From positions 1 to 5,499 of the forward strand of contig DOTA01000245.1 in assembly GCA_003513015.1 (NCBI GenBank): a DNA stretch of 5,499 nucleotides, written 5' to 3'. This document shows, piece after piece, positions 1 through 5,499 of the stretch. The DNA comes from Chloroflexota bacterium. GTDB lineage: Bacteria > Chloroflexota > Anaerolineae > Anaerolineales > UBA11858. The notes under the pieces were generated by a model that did not search any database, had not been told where the DNA came from, and saw nothing but the letters and a program-made list of their open reading frames with translations. The first letter of the stretch is position 1. Every line of letters begins with the position of its first letter. A program made the position numbers and the translations under genes.

Positions 1-2090
1 ATATCCAGACCGTGGAAACCCAGCGTCTGCACGGGAATCTCAAAAGTCAGGGTTTGGTTTTCGCCAGGCAGCAAACGGATTTTTTGGAAGCTTTTGAGTT
101 CTCGCACCGGGCGGGTGACTTCGGCCACCAGATCGCGCACGTAAAGCTGCACGATTTCAGCGGCGGGGATTTCTCCGGAGTTGGTAATTTTAACGGTGAC
201 TTTCAGGGTGGAATCCGCAGCTACTGTTGGCGTGAGCACCCCTAAATTCGAGTAAGCGAAACTCGTATAGGAGAGGCCAAAGCCGAAGGGGAAGAGCGGG
301 GCGACCTCCTCATCCACATATTCCGTAAAATGATATTTTTGGAATTGGAAACCTCCCTCACCATCGGGGGGGCGGCCTGTCATTTTGTGGGCGTAGTACA
401 CCGGAATTTGCCCCTCAGCCCGCGGCCAGGAGGCCGTGAGTTTGCCGCTGGGGTTAGCTTGCCCAAAAAGCAGATCGGCCACAGCTCGCCCCGTGCGCAG
501 CCCGCCATGCCAGGCGCACAAAATGGCGGGAATATTTTCGGCCATCCAGGGGATCACCAACGGGCGGCCCGACATGAGTACGGCGACAACCGGGGTGCCG
601 GTGGCATGCACGGCTTCGAGTAGGAATTGTTGTTTGCCGGGCAGCCCCAGGTGGGCGCGGGAGTGGGCCTCACCGCTCATGGCTTCGGCTTCGCCCAACA
701 CCATGATGACCAGATCGGCTTTTTGGGCGGCGGTGACAGCAGAGATGGTGTTGGTGGGGCGCTCGCCGCGGATATCGCAGCCTTGCGTGTAGGTGAGTTC
801 GATATCATCAGGGAGCACTTGCCGCAGCCCGTCGAGCACCGATTCGGTGTCTTCGTCGCGCCCAATGCGGTGCCAGGTGCCTAAAATTTCGTGATGGTCA
901 TCGGCCAGGGGGCCAATCAGGGCGATACGTTTGATATTTTGGGTGTCAATTGGCAGCAGGTTGCCCTGGTTTTTGAGCAGCACCATCGCTTGCGTGGCCG
1001 CTTCGAGAGCGGTTTGCAAGTATGCGGGTTTCAGGATAGCGGCGTCGGCACCGGCTGGATCGATGCGGGTGTTTTCAAATAACCCCAGCATTAATTTGAT
1101 GCGCAAAATTTGGCGCACAGCTTCGTCCAGGCGTTCTGTGGGGATGTAGCCTTCGTGGATGAGTTCGGCAAGGTGTTTATGATAGGCTCCGGAGGTCATA
1201 TCCATATCGACCCCAGCCAGGAAGGCGCGCCGGGCGGCTTCTTTGTGATTAGCGGCTACGCCGTGGGGTATCAATTCTCCTACGGAATTCCAGTCGGAGA
1301 CCACCAACCCCTTGAAATTCCACTCATCCCGCAGGATTTGCCGCAAAGTCAGGGGGTTAGCCGAGGCGGGGACGCCATTAAGGTCGTTGAAAGCCGACAT
1401 GGTTGTGCCAGCTCCGGCCTCGAAGGCGGCTTTGAAAGGTGGCAGGTAAATGTCCCGTAATTGGCGTTCGGAAATATCTACGGTGTTGTAATCTTTACCG
1501 GCTTCCGCGGCGCCATAGGCGGCGTAGTGCTTGGGGCAGGCTACCATTTTGTGGCCGTTATCAAGTTCGCTTTGGAAGCCGCGCACACGCGCCGCACCGA
1601 CGACTTGGCCTAAATAGGGGTCTTCGCCGGCCCCTTCAGCGATGCGCCCCCAACGCGGGTCGCGGCAGATATCCACCATCGGGCCAAAAGTCCAGTGAAC
1701 GCCGTTGGCGGTAGCCTCCTCAGCGGCGATGCGGGCGCTTTCTTCGATGAGTTCGAGATCCCAGGTGCAGGATTCGGCTAAAGGGATTGGGAAAATCGTA
1801 CGGTAGCCATGGATCACATCGCAGCCGATCAACAGCGGAATGCCGAGGCGAGATTCTTCTACGGCTACTTTTTGCACTGCGTTGATATTGTCGATGCCGT
1901 AGATGGTTAATACCGAGCCGACTTGCCCCTGGCGAATGCGCTCGATCATTTCTTTGCGGTTGCCTTCGTGGATGTTGATCTGTATGGTTTGCCCGATTTT
2001 TTCTTCCAAGGTCATTTTGGCGAGCAAGTTGTCGATCCGTTTTTCGATCTCAGGGTTGAGGGTGTTAAAGTTGTAGTGATTTCTTTTCAT
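1..2090 (-). CDS. bglX: GH3 family beta-glucosidase, BglX type; 3' end cut by window edge
   Basis: The frame is open from the ATG at 2090-2088 to the window edge (696 codons, no stop). The enzyme should remove terminal beta-linked glucose or related sugars from oligosaccharides by the retaining mechanism. The N-terminal GH3 barrel (about residues 15-330) carries MTLEEKIGQ, DPRWGR at 144-149 followed by GEDPYLG, and KHYAAYGA from 187. The nucleophile is expected at D266 in VVSDWNS. The alpha/beta-sandwich domain (about 370-560) holds GEAEAMSGEAHSR, where E474 is the likely acid/base, and PSGKL. PFGFGLSYTSF leads into the C-terminal fibronectin-III-like domain (about 620 onward). E. coli BglX has about 765 residues, so roughly 40-50 are missing. 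Unlike periplasmic BglX there is no signal peptide, which suggests a cytoplasmic enzyme acting on imported oligosaccharides. The start is supported by AGGA six bases upstream. It lies downstream of a tandem c-di-GMP riboswitch. Family call is firm; exact substrate and gene symbol are not. Confidence 0.96.
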   Translation of the reverse strand, partial: MKRNHYNFNTLNPEIEKRIDNLLAKMTLEEKIGQTIQINIHEGNRKEMIERIRQGQVGSVLTIYGIDNINAVQKVAVEESRLGIPLLIGCDVIHGYRTIFPIPLAESCTWDLELIEESARIAAEEATANGVHWTFGPMVDICRDPRWGRIAEGAGEDPYLGQVVGAARVRGFQSELDNGHKMVACPKHYAAYGAAEAGKDYNTVDISERQLRDIYLPPFKAAFEAGAGTTMSAFNDLNGVPASANPLTLRQILRDEWNFKGLVVSDWNSVGELIPHGVAANHKEAARRAFLAGVDMDMTSGAYHKHLAELIHEGYIPTERLDEAVRQILRIKLMLGLFENTRIDPAGADAAILKPAYLQTALEAATQAMVLLKNQGNLLPIDTQNIKRIALIGPLADDHHEILGTWHRIGRDEDTESVLDGLRQVLPDDIELTYTQGCDIRGERPTNTISAVTAAQKADLVIMVLGEAEAMSGEAHSRAHLGLPGKQQFLLEAVHATGTPVVAVLMSGRPLVIPWMAENIPAILCAWHGGLRTGRAVADLLFGQANPSGKLTASWPRAEGQIPVYYAHKMTGRPPDGEGGFQFQKYHFTEYVDEEVAPLFPFGFGLSYTSFAYSNLGVLTPTVAADSTLKVTVKITNSGEIPAAEIVQLYVRDLVAEVTRPVRELKSFQKIRLLPGENQTLTFEIPVQTLGFHGLD

Positions 2091-2100: not shown

Positions 2101-2114
2101 ATTTATAAAGTGGT

Positions 2115-2357
2115 GGCAGTTACAAAGTAAGTAGTGATGGCATACCGCAAGGGTATCCCCGTTGGTATGTTGAGGCTGAAGGCCGACGCTCCCCGGCACC
2201 CCCACCGGGGTAGGTATGCACCGCACGCAAGTGCAGGCGAACATCTTGCACAGCGTAAAATGGCATTTCGATGTCGAAATCCGCTTCGCTAGACCCTTCG
2301 CCTGCGACTCAGAGTGACACCGGTCTTTGCTTCATCACTTACAAATCAACCACTGCC
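2115..2357. repeat. Candidate short non-coding element with imperfect inverted ends and internal hairpins
   Basis: The left end on the plus strand reads GGCAGT, then GTAAG, TGATG, GCA (2115-2142). The right end read on the minus strand has the same blocks in the same order (2357-2328), with small gaps. Inside are several hairpins: ATACC/GGTAT around GCAAG (2142-2156), CCCCGG/CCGGGG (2191-2210), GCAC/GTGC capped by GCAA (2223-2234), and ATTTCGA/TCGAAAT with a two-base loop (2265-2280). The stretch 2281-2319 resembles, from memory, a dispersed bacterial repeat of the type CTGAG..GCGAAG. No open frame with a plausible start was seen. It could be a MITE- or REP-like insertion that lengthened the GH3 leader. 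No clear target-site duplication was found, so this remains a candidate. Confidence 0.4.
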
Positions 2358-2496: not shown

Positions 2497-2533
2497 AAAA
2501 AATTAAAACCCCCGCCGTTTTTGGCAGGGGTTT
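2497..2533 (-). terminator. Intrinsic terminator following the tandem riboswitch
   Basis: On the minus strand AAACCCCTGCC (2533-2523) pairs with GGCGGGGGTTT (2516-2506) around the loop AAAAAC, giving an unbroken 11-bp stem with one U-G pair. It is followed by TAATTTTTT (2505-2497). On the plus strand the same position would be a C-A mismatch and the T-tract would be missing, so the orientation is minus. It begins 10 bases after the outer aptamer helix, a usual arrangement for riboswitches that act by transcription attenuation. Confidence 0.88.
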
Positions 2534-2546
2534 GTTTGAATTGAAA

Positions 2547-2640
2547 GCACTCTTCGGTAGCCTGGCAATCTTCATCGGCCATACTTTTTCCGACTTAGAC
2601 CCATAGCTTTGCGCCCTTAGCTCCCGCTAAGTTAGCCTTT
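2547..2640 (-). promoter_or_regulatory. c-di-GMP-I (GEMM-I) riboswitch, aptamer 2 of a tandem pair
   Basis: The aptamer senses cyclic di-GMP in the nascent RNA. Read 5' to 3' on the minus strand: GGCTAAC (2637-2631); hairpin P2 CTTAGC/GCTAAG capped by the GNRA loop GGGA (2631-2616); GCGCAAAG (2614-2607); GGGTCTAAG, the tetraloop-receptor side (2602-2594); and TACCG at the 3' end (2559-2555). P3 folds as a stack: TGG/CCA, GTCT/AGAT and GTCGG/CCGAT. The position equivalent to G20 of Vibrio cholerae Vc2 is G, which predicts c-di-GMP rather than cGAMP recognition. It departs from the consensus in GGCTAAC (instead of GGCAAACC) and in its GGGA loop, so its affinity may differ from aptamer 1. Confidence 0.92.
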
Positions 2641-2740
2641 TTCGGTAGTCTGGCCGCCTTGGCCGTTAATCTTGCTGTAACGACTTTAGGCCCTGGACTT
2701 TGCGCCCCTGATTTTCATCAGGTTTGCCTTTTCGGAGTGC
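2641..2740 (-). promoter_or_regulatory. c-di-GMP-I (GEMM-I) riboswitch, aptamer 1 of a tandem pair
   Basis: This is the promoter-proximal and more canonical aptamer. On the minus strand it has GGCAAACC (2728-2721); P2 CCTGAT/ATCAGG capped by GAAA (2722-2707); GCGCAAAG (2705-2698); GGGCCTAAAG (2693-2684), matching the tetraloop receptor; and TACCG (2647-2643). AGTC after GCGCA and GACT before ACCG close P3. Inside, GTCGTTA pairs with TAACGGC and GCCT with AGGC. The G20-equivalent is G, consistent with c-di-GMP. Only five A residues separate its TACCG from the first GGC of aptamer 2. Confidence 0.94.
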
Positions 2741-2750
2741 TTTTTAACGT

Positions 2751-2761: not shown

Positions 2762-2791
2762 ATTGTAGCACTGTGGATGATCGCGAGTCAA
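2762..2791 (-). promoter_or_regulatory. Sigma70-type promoter of the tandem riboswitch leader
   Basis: The minus strand has -35 TTGACT (2791-2786), an 18-base spacer, and -10 TACAAT (2767-2762) preceded by TG one base upstream (extended -10, TGCTACAAT). Transcription should begin near 2755, only about 12 bases before the outer helix. The riboswitch unit therefore has its own promoter and need not depend on read-through from the DUF3048 genes. Confidence 0.8.
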
Positions 2792-2803
2792 TAGATTACG
2801 GGG

Positions 2804-2833
2804 AAATTTAAGGTTGTCTAGACAAATTTAAGG
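2804..2833. repeat. 12-bp palindrome overlapping a 10-bp direct repeat
   Basis: AAATTTAAGG occurs at 2804-2813 and 2824-2833, and TTGTCTAGACAA, a perfect palindrome, lies at 2814-2825. The stop codon of the downstream DUF3048 gene (2830-2828) is inside the second direct repeat. The palindrome has no loop and no T-tract, so it is not a normal intrinsic terminator. It may be a protein binding site or chance. Confidence 0.4.
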
Positions 2834-4072
2834 AGTCTGGAATTGAACGCGCCAATCAGGGCTGCCTTGTTGGGTTAGGCTGGATTGCCCGACGATCTCA
2901 AACCAGGTATTGCCCGGTTTTAAGGGGAAGCGGCTGCCATCATCGAAGGTGATCGAAACAATCTCTCCGGCGTTCGGGCGCGCCCAATTAGCATCGTAAG
3001 CCTGTCCATCGCGGAAAAGTGTGGCTTTGCCATAGCCAATCAGGTCGATCAGGATCATTTCGGGTTCGCGGCTGTAAAAACTGTGCGGCACAAACAACAC
3101 TACAACATTATCGGCGGCAACGATTTGATCATTTGAGCGATCCGTGAGCAGTTCGAAGGTTTCGCCTGCTCCAGAATCATAGGCGGCATCATAGTAGCGT
3201 TGATATTTACCGGTAGCGGCATCGTAAACCCATTTGTGATAATCATCTGCAGAGTAACGCACGATCAAGCTGTCTCCAGTTTCGCCATCGGGTGGCACAG
3301 CTTTATCAAAGCGCATCCCATCGAGGTTTTGCCGTCCATTGGGAACGCCTTGCGCCGTAAAGTGTTGGCTGAGGATGCTGGTATCGGTCATCAGGTGATT
3401 CCACTGATTGGGGTCGATGCGGCAGGTAGGGTAGTCAATATCTGGGGGGCAAGGCTTATCGGAAACCGAGGCCAGACGGTTAGCATATTCTGCGTTGAAA
3501 AGCATGGAACGCACGCGGTAATCTGCGCTGCCAAAGGCAAAAACCGATTTATAAGCCTGAATTAGAAGATCATCCGGGAGGCGTGCCGAGCGGATGGGGC
3601 CAACTTCACTGGCATTATTGCCATAGAAAATGGCGTGAAAACGCGTCAACCCGCCTTCGTGATAGTATTCAAAAACGAGATCAGCCAGTGATAAGCCCCA
3701 TTGCGGGCGGATATCGCGGGGGTAATTCGAGATTTTGACGGCAACCGGGCGGCGATCCAGAATGGCGGGATCATCCACAGCTAAGCCGGTGAGGGGGTTG
3801 ATGTTCGCGGGGAAATTAGCCGGCCCGTAACCCTCCACAGGGTAATTTGCCAGGGGATCGAGATTAACCTCGGTTGCGGTGGGTTCCGGGGTATCTGTGG
3901 GTGTGGAGGTTGGCGGTACCAATGTGGAAGTTGCGGTTGGCTCCGCGGTAGCGGTATCCGTTGGGAGGCTGGCAGGTTGTTGTTCCGGTTCTGCTGTGGG
4001 CGTGGCGGTTGGTTCGGAGGCACAGGCCGTCAGCAAAAGGATCAGGATCAATATCCAAATTAAGCGTTTCAT
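2828..4072 (-). CDS. DUF3048 (YerB-like) lipoprotein, second gene of the pair
   Basis: A predicted membrane-anchored lipoprotein of 414 residues, facing outward, of unknown molecular function. The signal peptide is MKRLIWILILILLLTAC with lipobox LTAC and lipidated C17. Residues 18-69 are a Thr/Pro/Glu-rich tether. The N-terminal DUF3048 domain runs from NPLTG (92-96) through RPVAVKISNYP, GLSLADLVFEY and GGLTRFHAIFYG to VGPIRSAR (157-164). The C-terminal DUF3048 part has VAADNVVVLFVPHSF and FPLKPG (382-387). C208 and C217 may form a disulfide. The ATG at 4072 is preferred because GAGGAG lies 10 bases upstream; the ATG at 4090 has no ribosome binding site and would add six residues before the signal. 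It starts 30 bases after the stop of its paralogue and is probably co-transcribed. B. subtilis YerB is the best-known member of the family; the role is unknown there too, as far as I recall. No intrinsic terminator follows. Confidence 0.93.
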   Translation of the reverse strand: MKRLIWILILILLLTACASEPTATPTAEPEQQPASLPTDTATAEPTATSTLVPPTSTPTDTPEPTATEVNLDPLANYPVEGYGPANFPANINPLTGLAVDDPAILDRRPVAVKISNYPRDIRPQWGLSLADLVFEYYHEGGLTRFHAIFYGNNASEVGPIRSARLPDDLLIQAYKSVFAFGSADYRVRSMLFNAEYANRLASVSDKPCPPDIDYPTCRIDPNQWNHLMTDTSILSQHFTAQGVPNGRQNLDGMRFDKAVPPDGETGDSLIVRYSADDYHKWVYDAATGKYQRYYDAAYDSGAGETFELLTDRSNDQIVAADNVVVLFVPHSFYSREPEMILIDLIGYGKATLFRDGQAYDANWARPNAGEIVSITFDDGSRFPLKPGNTWFEIVGQSSLTQQGSPDWRVQFQTP

Positions 4073-4082
4073 AGATTCTTGG

Positions 4083-4088
4083 CTCCTC
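4083..4088 (-). promoter_or_regulatory. Ribosome binding site that decides the start at 4072
   Basis: GAGGAG on the minus strand lies 10 bases before the ATG at 4072 and immediately downstream of the alternative ATG at 4090. It can serve only the 4072 start, and so supports the 414-residue protein. Confidence 0.75.
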
Positions 4089-4102
4089 ATAATTTCTGTG
4101 AT

Positions 4103-5395
4103 TTATTCTGGGGGTGGGGTGGGGCGGACAAAATCAAATGTCCAGATGGAATTATCTTCTATGTAGGTTGAATCGGTGGTAAGGACCTGAAAGAAAGTCA
4201 CGCCGGGTTTAAGCGGGAAAAGGTTCCCCGCGGTATCTTGAATGGTGAGGGGTTTATTTTCATCGGTGCGGACCCAAACTGCTGGGTTGGCTTTGCCATC
4301 TCGAAAAACATAGGCGTCACCCTGGTCGGTGAGTTTAATATCGAAAATTTCAGAGGTATCCGATTTATAGAAAAATTCATGGGGCACGAACAAAACAATC
4401 ACATTGTCGGCTGCCACGGGTTGGCCGTTCAAATTGTCGATGAGCAGATCGTATTGCGGATTATTGTGCAGGTTATCTGCACTTCCCTGGTAACGCAGGT
4501 ATCGGCCCGTATTGAGATCGTATTCCCAGTAGGCGTAATTGGCGTAGGAATAGTTAACATACACTTGCATAGCCCAATCGTTGCCATAATTACCGATGGA
4601 ATAGAATGCATTGGTCACCAGATCAGGACGTTCGTTGCCAGTTCCTCGTTCCGTGACTAGATTAGAAATTTCGTGGGTGTTGCCAAAGAGATTGTTGTAA
4701 TCATTAATACTTTCATCGCGGCACATATAGGGCTTGCATTCGCCGGGATCGACCACAAACAGATTTTTGTTGAGGTTTTCAACCAGATAGCCATAAACAT
4801 CCAGAGCGGCATTATCGATTTCCTGGTAAGCGCCATTGAAAACATACACGGCGTTATACATCTTGACGATATGTACATCAAAAATTCGCCCGGAGCGGAT
4901 CGGCCCGACACGCTCAGCATCGTTGCCGTAAAATATGGCAATAAACCGGGTCAATCCTTCTTCCAGGTGATATTCAAATACGTTGTCCGCCAGGGATAGC
5001 CCGGCTTGATTTTGCCGCACCGAGTGCGGATAATTAGGGATTTTGACGGCGATGGGGCGGCGTTCCAGCAAGGCGGGATCTGAGGGCGGATACCCGGTCA
5101 GTGGGTTGATATTATCTGGAAAATTGTCGGGTTGAACGCGGGTGATCGGCGGCACTGTTGCCGAGGCTGTGGCAGTTGGCAGTTTGGTGCGGGTTGGCCG
5201 GGGAGTCGGCGAAATCGTGGGCGTGGGGCTGTCTACGGCAGTTGGCCAGGGAGTCACGGTATTCGGAATTTCTGTGGGCAAAGCCAATGTTGGGGGTAGT
5301 GTCGGCAGGGGAGCCAAGGCTTTATCTAAAGTAGCGCAGCCCACAAATAAACCGGCTGTTAAAATTATAATTAGTAAAAAGAATTTTCGTGACAT
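4103..5395 (-). CDS. DUF3048 (YerB-like) lipoprotein, first gene of the pair
   Basis: A predicted 430-residue lipoprotein, paralogous to its downstream neighbour. The signal peptide MSRKFFLLIIILTAGLFVGC puts the lipidated cysteine at 20; the lipobox FVGC is less canonical than LTAC. Residues 21-83 form a Thr/Pro-rich tether. The DUF3048 domain includes NPLTG (97-101), RRPIAVKIPNYP, GLSLADNVFEY, EGLTRFIAIFYG and VGPIRSGR (163-170). The C-terminal part includes VAADNVIVLFVPHEF and FPLKPG (393-398). C220 and C225 are a close cysteine pair at the place where the paralogue has C208/C217, but with different spacing. The protein ends in PTPPPE. An in-frame ATG at 5497 would add 34 residues, but that extension runs through the promoter and buries the signal peptide. 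The ATG at 5395 has a GGAAGAG six bases upstream. Family call is strong; function is unknown. Confidence 0.92.
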   Translation of the reverse strand: MSRKFFLLIIILTAGLFVGCATLDKALAPLPTLPPTLALPTEIPNTVTPWPTAVDSPTPTISPTPRPTRTKLPTATASATVPPITRVQPDNFPDNINPLTGYPPSDPALLERRPIAVKIPNYPHSVRQNQAGLSLADNVFEYHLEEGLTRFIAIFYGNDAERVGPIRSGRIFDVHIVKMYNAVYVFNGAYQEIDNAALDVYGYLVENLNKNLFVVDPGECKPYMCRDESINDYNNLFGNTHEISNLVTERGTGNERPDLVTNAFYSIGNYGNDWAMQVYVNYSYANYAYWEYDLNTGRYLRYQGSADNLHNNPQYDLLIDNLNGQPVAADNVIVLFVPHEFFYKSDTSEIFDIKLTDQGDAYVFRDGKANPAVWVRTDENKPLTIQDTAGNLFPLKPGVTFFQVLTTDSTYIEDNSIWTFDFVRPTPPPE

Positions 5396-5401
5396 GATTT
5401 T

Positions 5402-5408
5402 CTCTTCC
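5402..5408 (-). promoter_or_regulatory. Ribosome binding site of the first DUF3048 gene
   Basis: GGAAGAG on the minus strand lies six bases before the ATG at 5395. Together with the signal peptide that begins there, it selects this start over the in-frame ATG at 5497. Confidence 0.65.
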
Positions 5409-5431
5409 GTCAGGGATTCATTCAAAGCGTT

Positions 5432-5460
5432 ATCATACCGCGATTGCATAGGCTTGCCAA
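5432..5460 (-). promoter_or_regulatory. Sigma70-type promoter of the DUF3048 gene pair
   Basis: The minus strand has TTGGCA (5460-5455), a 17-base spacer, and TATGAT (5437-5432). Transcription should begin near 5425, leaving a leader of about 30 bases before the ATG at 5395. Part of the spacer (5449-5440) is one copy of a repeated 10-mer described separately. Confidence 0.75.
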
Positions 5461-5490
5461 ATGGGTTTGAGGCCTGTAGGGCGATTGCAT
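5440..5490 (-). repeat. Direct repeat ATGCAATCGC in and upstream of the DUF3048 promoter
   Basis: The 10-mer ATGCAATCGC (minus strand) occurs at 5449-5440, inside the spacer of the predicted promoter, and again at 5490-5481, upstream of the -35 box. The copies are 41 bases apart, close to four helical turns, so they face the same side of the DNA. This fits paired operator sites, but a chance repeat cannot be excluded. Confidence 0.4.
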
Positions 5491-5499
5491 GTAGCACTG

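Follow-up and report, generated by a model that had tools for sequence, protein, structure and literature searches.

Overlapping c-di-GMP-I aptamers enclosed by one outer helix in a candidate standalone RNA of Anaerolineales

Riboswitch aptamers tend to be viewed as beads on a string: every bead has a closing stem to itself and, in most cases, an output to itself. Two c-di-GMP-I (GEMM-I) aptamers that stand head to tail in an Anaerolineales genome (Chloroflexota; GenBank assembly GCA_003513015.1) raise the question of whether neighboring aptamers of this class can be built differently. We refer to the whole stretch of DNA that was analyzed, 5,499 nucleotides of contig DOTA01000245.1, as the window. 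A covariance-model search with Rfam model RF01051 gave two matches on the minus strand of the window, at 2738-2641 and 2647-2553, both above the gathering score of 35 and both covering model positions 1-87, the full length of the model. A sequence-only reading had proposed two complete c-di-GMP-I aptamers here, and these matches bear it out; the motifs that it listed were also all found, namely the P2 loops GAAA and GGGA, GCGCAAAG twice, GGGCCTAA and GGGTCTAA, and TACCG twice. That reading overlooked a 7-nt overlap between the two aptamers, a single 9-bp helix that encloses them, and the sites that flank them, one resembling a promoter and the other a terminator hairpin. On the minus strand, the order is the DUF3048 gene, the promoter-like site, aptamer 1, aptamer 2, the terminator-like hairpin, and the GH3 gene, with the following features:

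2828..4090, minus strand: gene for a DUF3048 protein, upstream of the array (Pfam PF11258, PF17479)
2762..2791, minus strand: promoter-like site TTGACT-18-TACAAT (10/12 matches), its second hexamer preceded by TG
2735..2743, minus strand: 5' strand of the outer helix, AAAGCACTC, forming 9 bp with 2552-2544 (pair probability 0.78-1.0; covaries in relatives)
2733..2734, minus strand: inward continuation CG, P1 of the composite, pairing with 2556-2555 past an AA bulge (MFE fold; probability 0.42)
2641..2738, minus strand: aptamer unit 1, c-di-GMP-I (RF01051, 70.1 bits)
2641..2647, minus strand: shared stretch TACCGAA, in which unit 1 ends (3') and unit 2 starts (5') (overlap of the RF01051 matches)
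2553..2647, minus strand: aptamer unit 2, c-di-GMP-I (RF01051, 68.0 bits; RF03167, 61.5 bits)
2544..2552, minus strand: 3' strand of the outer helix, GAGTGCTTT, pairing with 2743-2735
2506..2533, minus strand: intrinsic-terminator-like hairpin of 11 bp followed by a T-rich tail (pair probability 0.63-1.0)
3..2090, minus strand: gene for a glycoside hydrolase of family 3 (GH3), next downstream and running off the window (Pfam PF00933, PF01915)

The tetraloop, the receptor, and G20 are present in each unit. In Vc2 numbering, and with the placement of the A47 and C92 contact positions assumed by us, the ligand-contact letters of unit 1 are G20 at 2728, A47 at 2701, and C92 within the CCG at 2645-2643, and those of unit 2 are G20 at 2637, A47 at 2610, and C92 within the CCG at 2557-2555. 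None of 200 dinucleotide shuffles matched the stability computed for the fold of 2760-2500, a stretch that includes the terminator (z -4.49). The same genome carries single c-di-GMP-I copies at three further places and 14 GGDEF matches.

The overlap places one strand in both aptamers. The linker GACTACCGAAAAAGGC provides the 3' junction strand of aptamer 1 (TACCG) and the 5' junction strand of aptamer 2 (ACCGAAAAAGG), with one CCG closing the first aptamer and opening the second. The two ends of a lone c-di-GMP-I aptamer pair with each other as P1. In the same register, the units' own flanks in the window form 0 consecutive pairs for unit 1 and 1 for unit 2, while the outer flanks form 9, and therefore a single P1 would close both aptamers in the modeled structure. 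The CG/CG pairing that follows the AA bulge resembles P1 of the Rfam model, and the window fold loses 10 kcal/mol when the outer helix is forbidden. At 11 places in the same order where single or separated aptamers are listed, the aptamer's own P1 register also holds just 0-4 consecutive pairs (the survey had 23 candidate places in total, with the 12 others not at listed aptamers). Since the single aptamers of the order also have a short P1, the missing P1 of each unit is not special on its own; the special feature is the helix that joins the outermost ends, not the weak P1 of each unit. In the ligand-free MFE fold (-88.9 kcal/mol), the outer helix and the two P2 hairpins are preserved but P3 does not have its canonical bases; P3 of unit 2 pairs instead with the linker and with the 3' P3 strand from unit 1. 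A fold with both canonical aptamers has -85.3 kcal/mol, 3.6 above the MFE, before ligand and tertiary contacts are taken into account.

The design recurs within Anaerolineales, where we found 46 further distinct arrays, or 47 including the window. These are distinct arrays with both outer strands, counted after identical sequences were collapsed, since some genomes and records represent the same assembly. Three cores were recognized in 42 of the 47 arrays and two in the window; a divergent third unit is readable in L034, L081, L130, and L156. The window is thus the only clean two-unit array, all others having three units, recognized or divergent. In the RF01051 search, overlapping chains also appear in G007, with two listed units that overlap by 8 nt, and in G030, with three units that overlap by 7 and 9 nt. 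An Rfam scan of eight loci placed neighboring units next to each other, 0-1 nt apart, in L034, L081, and L102, where overlaps seem to have been trimmed; L034 is the G007 array, the one with the 8-nt overlap in the RF01051 search. The contig of that array also carries a cobalamin riboswitch (L034 1402-1615, plus strand).

A linker-plus-core pattern applied to one genome from each of 84,980 species matched 72 stretches, of which 29 are labeled Chloroflexi, Anaerolineales, or a member of that order, and chained units occur in all 29. The unit pattern gave no chain in the other 43, which were set aside as a group and include five Bradyrhizobium records with two bare cores 62 nt apart. With a two-core pattern, 85 of 400 genomes in an Anaerolineales sample matched and 49 were read by eye as arrays. 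The same pattern matched 42 of 400 genomes in a sample of the phylum, where an array was called from a CTA receptor after the first core; 11 were read as arrays, all from Anaerolineales, and the rest as chance; with this pattern, no array was called in any of the 364 genomes from outside the order. A backwards control pattern also matched some genomes in both samples, and a pattern match alone is therefore no evidence; the two-core pattern is in addition strict and misses some arrays, G007 among them. In a viral collection, the pattern search returned seven stretches with no chain in any.

The commonest class comprises 38 of the 47 arrays. The tip of P3 in unit 1 has the sequence GCTGWACTGAGYC (A1 columns 63-92; for example L066 6566-6835) in 32 of these 38 arrays and in none of the 9 others. 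Mean pairwise identity of the P3 tip is 0.77 in unit 1 (34 arrays), against 0.58 and 0.52 in units 2 and 3, and the conserved tip of unit 1 is possibly a target-pairing or protein site.

Comparison of the relatives indicates that the outer helix covaries. Across 49 arrays, a mean of 5.37 of 6 positions are paired in register, and this falls to 1.90-2.86 when the strands are slid by 1-2 nt. Because related sequences inflate shuffle tests, we give class-level figures. With one array for each distinct pair of outer strands (32 arrays), the mean is 5.16 versus 4.50 ± 0.13 for shuffled partners, a value reached in 0 of 10,000 shuffles, and with one array for each distinct 5' strand (14 arrays) it is 4.86 versus 3.91 ± 0.23, reached in 5 of 10,000. 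A looser-anchored test with 20 classes gave 3.60 versus 2.91 ± 0.26 (73 of 5,000), a weaker result because several arrays, those in which the pattern missed the first unit (L018, L078, L081, L130, L138, L156, L190), were wrongly anchored; the mean for the outer helix in that test, 4.83 (n = 40), is lowered by keeping them in. The exchanges between outer strands are of the sort expected and include GCACTC/GAGTGC, found in the window and elsewhere, TTGCTC/GAGCAA, CCACTC/GAGTGG, GCGCTC/GAGCGT, and GCATCC/GGATGC. RNAalifold predicted four outer pairs unprompted, with GC/AU, CG/UA, and UA/CG exchanges, from an alignment of 41 of the 47 arrays; L181, L184, L187, and L189 (all of the commonest class), the long L078, and L137, the window's two-unit copy, were left out, and three rows (L034, L081, and L102) have their 5' ends offset by 2 columns. 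The set of 47 keeps helices of at least 4 pairs, with L117 and L164 dropped as chance, and the set of 49 restores two arrays lost to the filter, which are the exceptions to the helix: L077, with 3 of 6 pairs, and L175, with 4 of 6 and an A-A at its base. The outer 5' strand was not found in L138/L176, while contig ends truncate L043 and L147/L174.

The arrays also carry flanking sites of their own, identified by consensus match. Directly upstream, a sigma-70-type site occurs in 45 of the 47 arrays (not in L102 or L186), where 0.54 would be expected from control windows further upstream, and in most arrays the predicted start of transcription coincides with the first letters of the outer helix. 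Transcription from the promoter-like site of the window is predicted to begin at about 2755. This site lies 18 nt from the outer helix, compared with 1-10 nt in the relatives that have such a site, and is one of eight promoter-like sites found window-wide, against 4.7 expected. Just upstream of the -35-like site, all 38 members of the commonest class carry a conserved motif, TAGAACRnnTG, 20-70 nt before the array (at about 6520 in L066, for example), and we take it to resemble half of a LexA-type box. Downstream, 41 of the 47 arrays have a terminator-like hairpin no more than 30 nt away, against 1.85 expected from 740 control windows; all 41 have a stem of at least 9 pairs, for which 0.05 would be expected. 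Five terminator-like sites were found in the window, against 7.2 expected, and the only one on the minus strand is the hairpin downstream of both aptamers; the scan found none between the aptamers on their strand. The stem of this hairpin starts 11 nt past the outer helix, shares no letter with the helix or the aptamers, and is near-certain in the computed ensemble.

A promoter-like site, aptamers, a terminator-like hairpin, and a same-strand gene, in that order, are also what a cis-acting riboswitch would present. The locus could accordingly be read as a two-aptamer riboswitch with one expression platform, in the style of the glycine riboswitch, in which c-di-GMP controls the terminator at 2533-2506 and governs GH3. 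We consider this unlikely. The terminator stem is separate from every aptamer strand and near-certain in the computed ensemble, and a search that was confined to pairing between the terminator arms and the array found no more complementarity than expected (mean z 0.28 and -0.47 for the two arms, n = 41). In those 41 arrays, the hairpin averages -20.9 kcal/mol and the best duplex of its 5' arm -9.4 kcal/mol. In the window, CAGGGG of unit 1 could form an antiterminator by pairing with CCCCTG in the terminator arm (-11.6 kcal/mol; z -1.44), but this was rejected, there being no excess over the 41 arrays.

The genes that follow the arrays speak on both sides of this alternative. A same-strand gene of two recurrent kinds follows 26 of the 47 arrays, as a cis-acting element would lead one to expect: ruvB lies within 700 nt downstream in 21, counted over the arrays of all classes together, and an MBOAT acyltransferase in 5 (L042, L055, L180, L181, and L183, by reading, with a Pfam match for L055). 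In L066 the downstream gene encodes a response regulator (by reading). The next open reading frame is convergent in 7 of the 47 arrays, encoding PurA in L057 and a DnaJ protein in L082 (both Pfam), a DnaJ-like protein in L090 (by reading), and a small product in L081, with no Pfam match in L071, L078, and L130. These tallies rest on longest open reading frames and not on a gene caller, and exclude from the convergent count L094 and L190, in which the convergent frame is short, and L061, in which it overlaps ruvB; L034, L088, L106, and L186 have no downstream frame within the stretch examined. In L082, a single c-di-GMP-I aptamer (2767-2858, minus strand) lies beyond the DnaJ-domain gene and is oriented toward the array. 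Upstream, the seven arrays of the commonest class that were examined (L042, L057, L066, L071, L084, L180, L190) follow a gene whose product reads as an HlyD-like membrane-fusion protein (Pfam for L066). A gene for an FtsX-like permease, identified by reading, lies beyond it in L066 and immediately before the array in L077. We rejected ruvB as the target, since other genes or convergent frames stand next to the array elsewhere. The array thus does not seem bound to any single downstream gene, and this is the main reason for regarding it as an RNA gene.

The surroundings of the array in the window add to the case against cis control of GH3. The GH3 start codon is 415 nt past the terminator stem, across a gap with no convincing gene. 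Seven relatives of the DUF3048 gene (L197-L203, 49-58% identity) have neither a chain of aptamer cores nor a GH3 match in the adjacent stretch, in a search that was aimed at chains and could have passed over a lone aptamer, and for this reason control of the window's neighbor genes was rejected as the purpose of the site. Regulation of GH3 by the array has no support in this analysis; cis control in some places, the window included, is possible. Between the terminator and GH3, positions 2110-2345 (minus strand) have 13 partial matches elsewhere in the same genome (24-107 nt, 75-96% identity) and look like a dispersed repeat. The DUF3048 genes form an adjacent pair (2828-5497, minus strand) that recurs in other genomes of the family, and a below-threshold match to the abiF RNA inside the GH3 gene (501-531, plus strand; 27.7 versus 37 bits) was read as chance.

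A second alternative is that the locus is an ordinary pseudo-cooperative tandem, with two independent aptamers that merely abut and an incidental outer helix. The sequence-only reading held that tandem GEMM aptamers are known but uncommon, whereas a survey from 2022 counts 347 doublets and 12 triplets, making tandems of c-di-GMP-I aptamers common and placing the class ahead of all others in both categories (PMC9481103). Separated tandems of the class also occur in this order (G030:C1:300983-301249, G043:C15:3667-3942, G046:C4:60401-60669). In these, however, 85-91 nt lie between the aptamers, and in G030, where an overlapping and a separated tandem are found in one contig, the spacer of the separated one holds a hairpin with a T-tract. 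Set against the 7-9 nt overlaps in the window, G007, and G030 and the covariation of the outer helix, this makes two independent aptamers improbable. A third alternative, that the two units are what is left of a three-unit array that decayed or lost its function, would account for the presence of two units only and for the unusual distance between the promoter-like site and the outer helix, but we regard it as very improbable, given that both units keep the conserved motifs at 68-70 bits, the 9 bp of the outer helix contain no mismatch, and both flanking sites are present.

We lean instead, with little more than even confidence, toward a standalone RNA of ~250 nt in which overlapping aptamers within one outer helix would bind two c-di-GMP molecules cooperatively, and which would act in trans with its own terminator not switched. 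The overlap, the shared strand, the covarying outer helix, the flanking sites, and the recurrence within one order rest on sequence and comparison; binding, cooperativity, and action in trans we infer as follows. Coupling between the sites is expected because the CCG of the linker serves both units, as the 3' junction strand of the first and the 5' junction strand of the second, and occupation of one site would order this common stretch and favor the other site. In the ligand-free state, P3 of unit 2 is predicted to be able to pair with the linker and with the 3' P3 strand from unit 1, and c-di-GMP would tip the array toward the canonical fold of both aptamers. The output would lie outside the terminator, and the RNA could serve as a ligand-gated regulator, which we favor, or as a buffer for c-di-GMP.

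Several observations count against this reading. The order of promoter, aptamer, and terminator is also typical of cis riboswitches, 26 arrays precede recurrent same-strand genes, and GH3 in the window is likewise on the same strand. The promoter-like site of the window is one of more such sites than expected and stands at a greater distance from the helix than in the relatives. Units abut and do not overlap in three of the eight scanned loci, the MFE fold lacks the canonical P3 bases, the window has the only clean two-unit array, and single aptamers in the order also have a short P1.

The relatives also vary at a position that bears on ligand choice. Position 20 is a selectivity position between cyclic dinucleotides (PMC9262584; PMC9481103), as illustrated by G20A (PMC6274999). 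In the arrays studied it is the letter before GC.AA, and both units of the window carry G, the letter for c-di-GMP. Over 41 distinct chains, the letters read AAG in 21, GG in 7, AAC in 3, GAG, AAA, and GGG in 2 each, and GAC, AC, GAA, and AGG in one each, where seven of the eight two-unit chains come from arrays in which a further unit or its end is readable upstream and the eighth is the window. Many relatives thus mix A and G units within one array. In the commonest class (for example L042 4673-4949), A predominates in units 1 and 2 and G in unit 3, where C or A is seen at times, and judging from these letters one RNA of this class may read two different cyclic dinucleotides. A broader proposal, which we put forward tentatively and hold to be doubtful as a whole, is that Anaerolineales possess a new type of small RNA with two to three cyclic-dinucleotide aptamers in a one-helix body that is transcribed alone and binds cooperatively, that many of these RNAs read a cGAMP-type ligand and c-di-GMP together through two A20 units and one G20 unit, and that the RNA acts as a signal-gated regulator in trans or as a second-messenger sink.

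These arrays represent a new form, a single-clasp array of overlapping aptamers that is likely a standalone RNA. In place of beads, the aptamers share strands and one clasp, and the array appears to be the RNA gene itself; if this is true, it would offer a natural test system for coupling between RNA binding sites and an example of a non-leader RNA that senses a second messenger. Among the matches listed in a search of open-licence papers by title and start of abstract, none described c-di-GMP-I aptamers that overlap within a single helix, or RNAs of this kind from Anaerolineales. The 2022 survey states that some candidates whose coordinates overlapped were discarded as being single riboswitches (PMC9481103, section 5), and an array of this design could therefore have been filtered out. 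A 2025 survey of contiguous riboswitches reports c-di-GMP tandems to be enriched in Thermodesulfobacteriota and Deinococcota (PMC12452182).

Among known systems, the RF01051 GEMM-I aptamer is matched over its whole model by each unit of the window, but here the units overlap, one helix closes the group, and the RNA is likely not the leader of a fixed gene. Within the GEMM-I family, the window-wide Rfam scan, which drops overlapping matches within one clan, kept RF03167 (c-di-GMP-I-GGC) as the best. Aptamer 2 exceeds the cut-off of 59 bits for this model but aptamer 1, at 35.1 bits, does not, and the letter in J2/3 that marks the variant is missing, with CGCAAA in place of the consensus CGCGAA; we therefore rejected RF03167 as the family. 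The GEMM-I variants that recognize c-AMP-GMP (3',3'-cGAMP) resemble the many relatives with A20 in units 1 and 2, but differ from the window, with G20 in both units, and from relatives that mix A and G units in one array.

A close tandem of the same class is the pseudo-cooperative Bc3-5 of Bacillus thuringiensis, which likewise has same-class aptamers in a row, two or three in such systems (PMC4759541; PMC9481103). Every unit of Bc3-5 is a riboswitch in full, with a terminator that competes against its binding site and P1, and the terminator of Bc4 includes letters of the binding site, P1, and P3 (PMC4759541). The 2022 survey appears to list c-di-GMP-I tandems in the multiple-expression-platform column of its Table 1 (PMC9481103). 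The window differs in having no terminator-like site between its units and a downstream one that overlaps nothing; with a 7-nt overlap and a sole minus-strand terminator-like site downstream, its aptamers do not each have an expression platform of their own. The sequence-only reading had drawn an analogy with doubling in other riboswitch classes, and while tandem c-di-GMP-I aptamers do exist, the sharper response does not carry over directly, since the units of Bc3-5 are separate riboswitches with their own platforms (PMC4759541). Tandem glycine aptamers, which are cooperative and have one expression platform (PMC9481103), are like the array in having adjacent homologous aptamers with a single terminator after the last, and cooperative binding is the gain to be expected of such an arrangement. 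They belong to a different RNA class, however, and the arrays of Anaerolineales are distinguished from them by a shared strand, one enclosing helix around two to three units, and a terminator that appears to be uncoupled from the aptamers.
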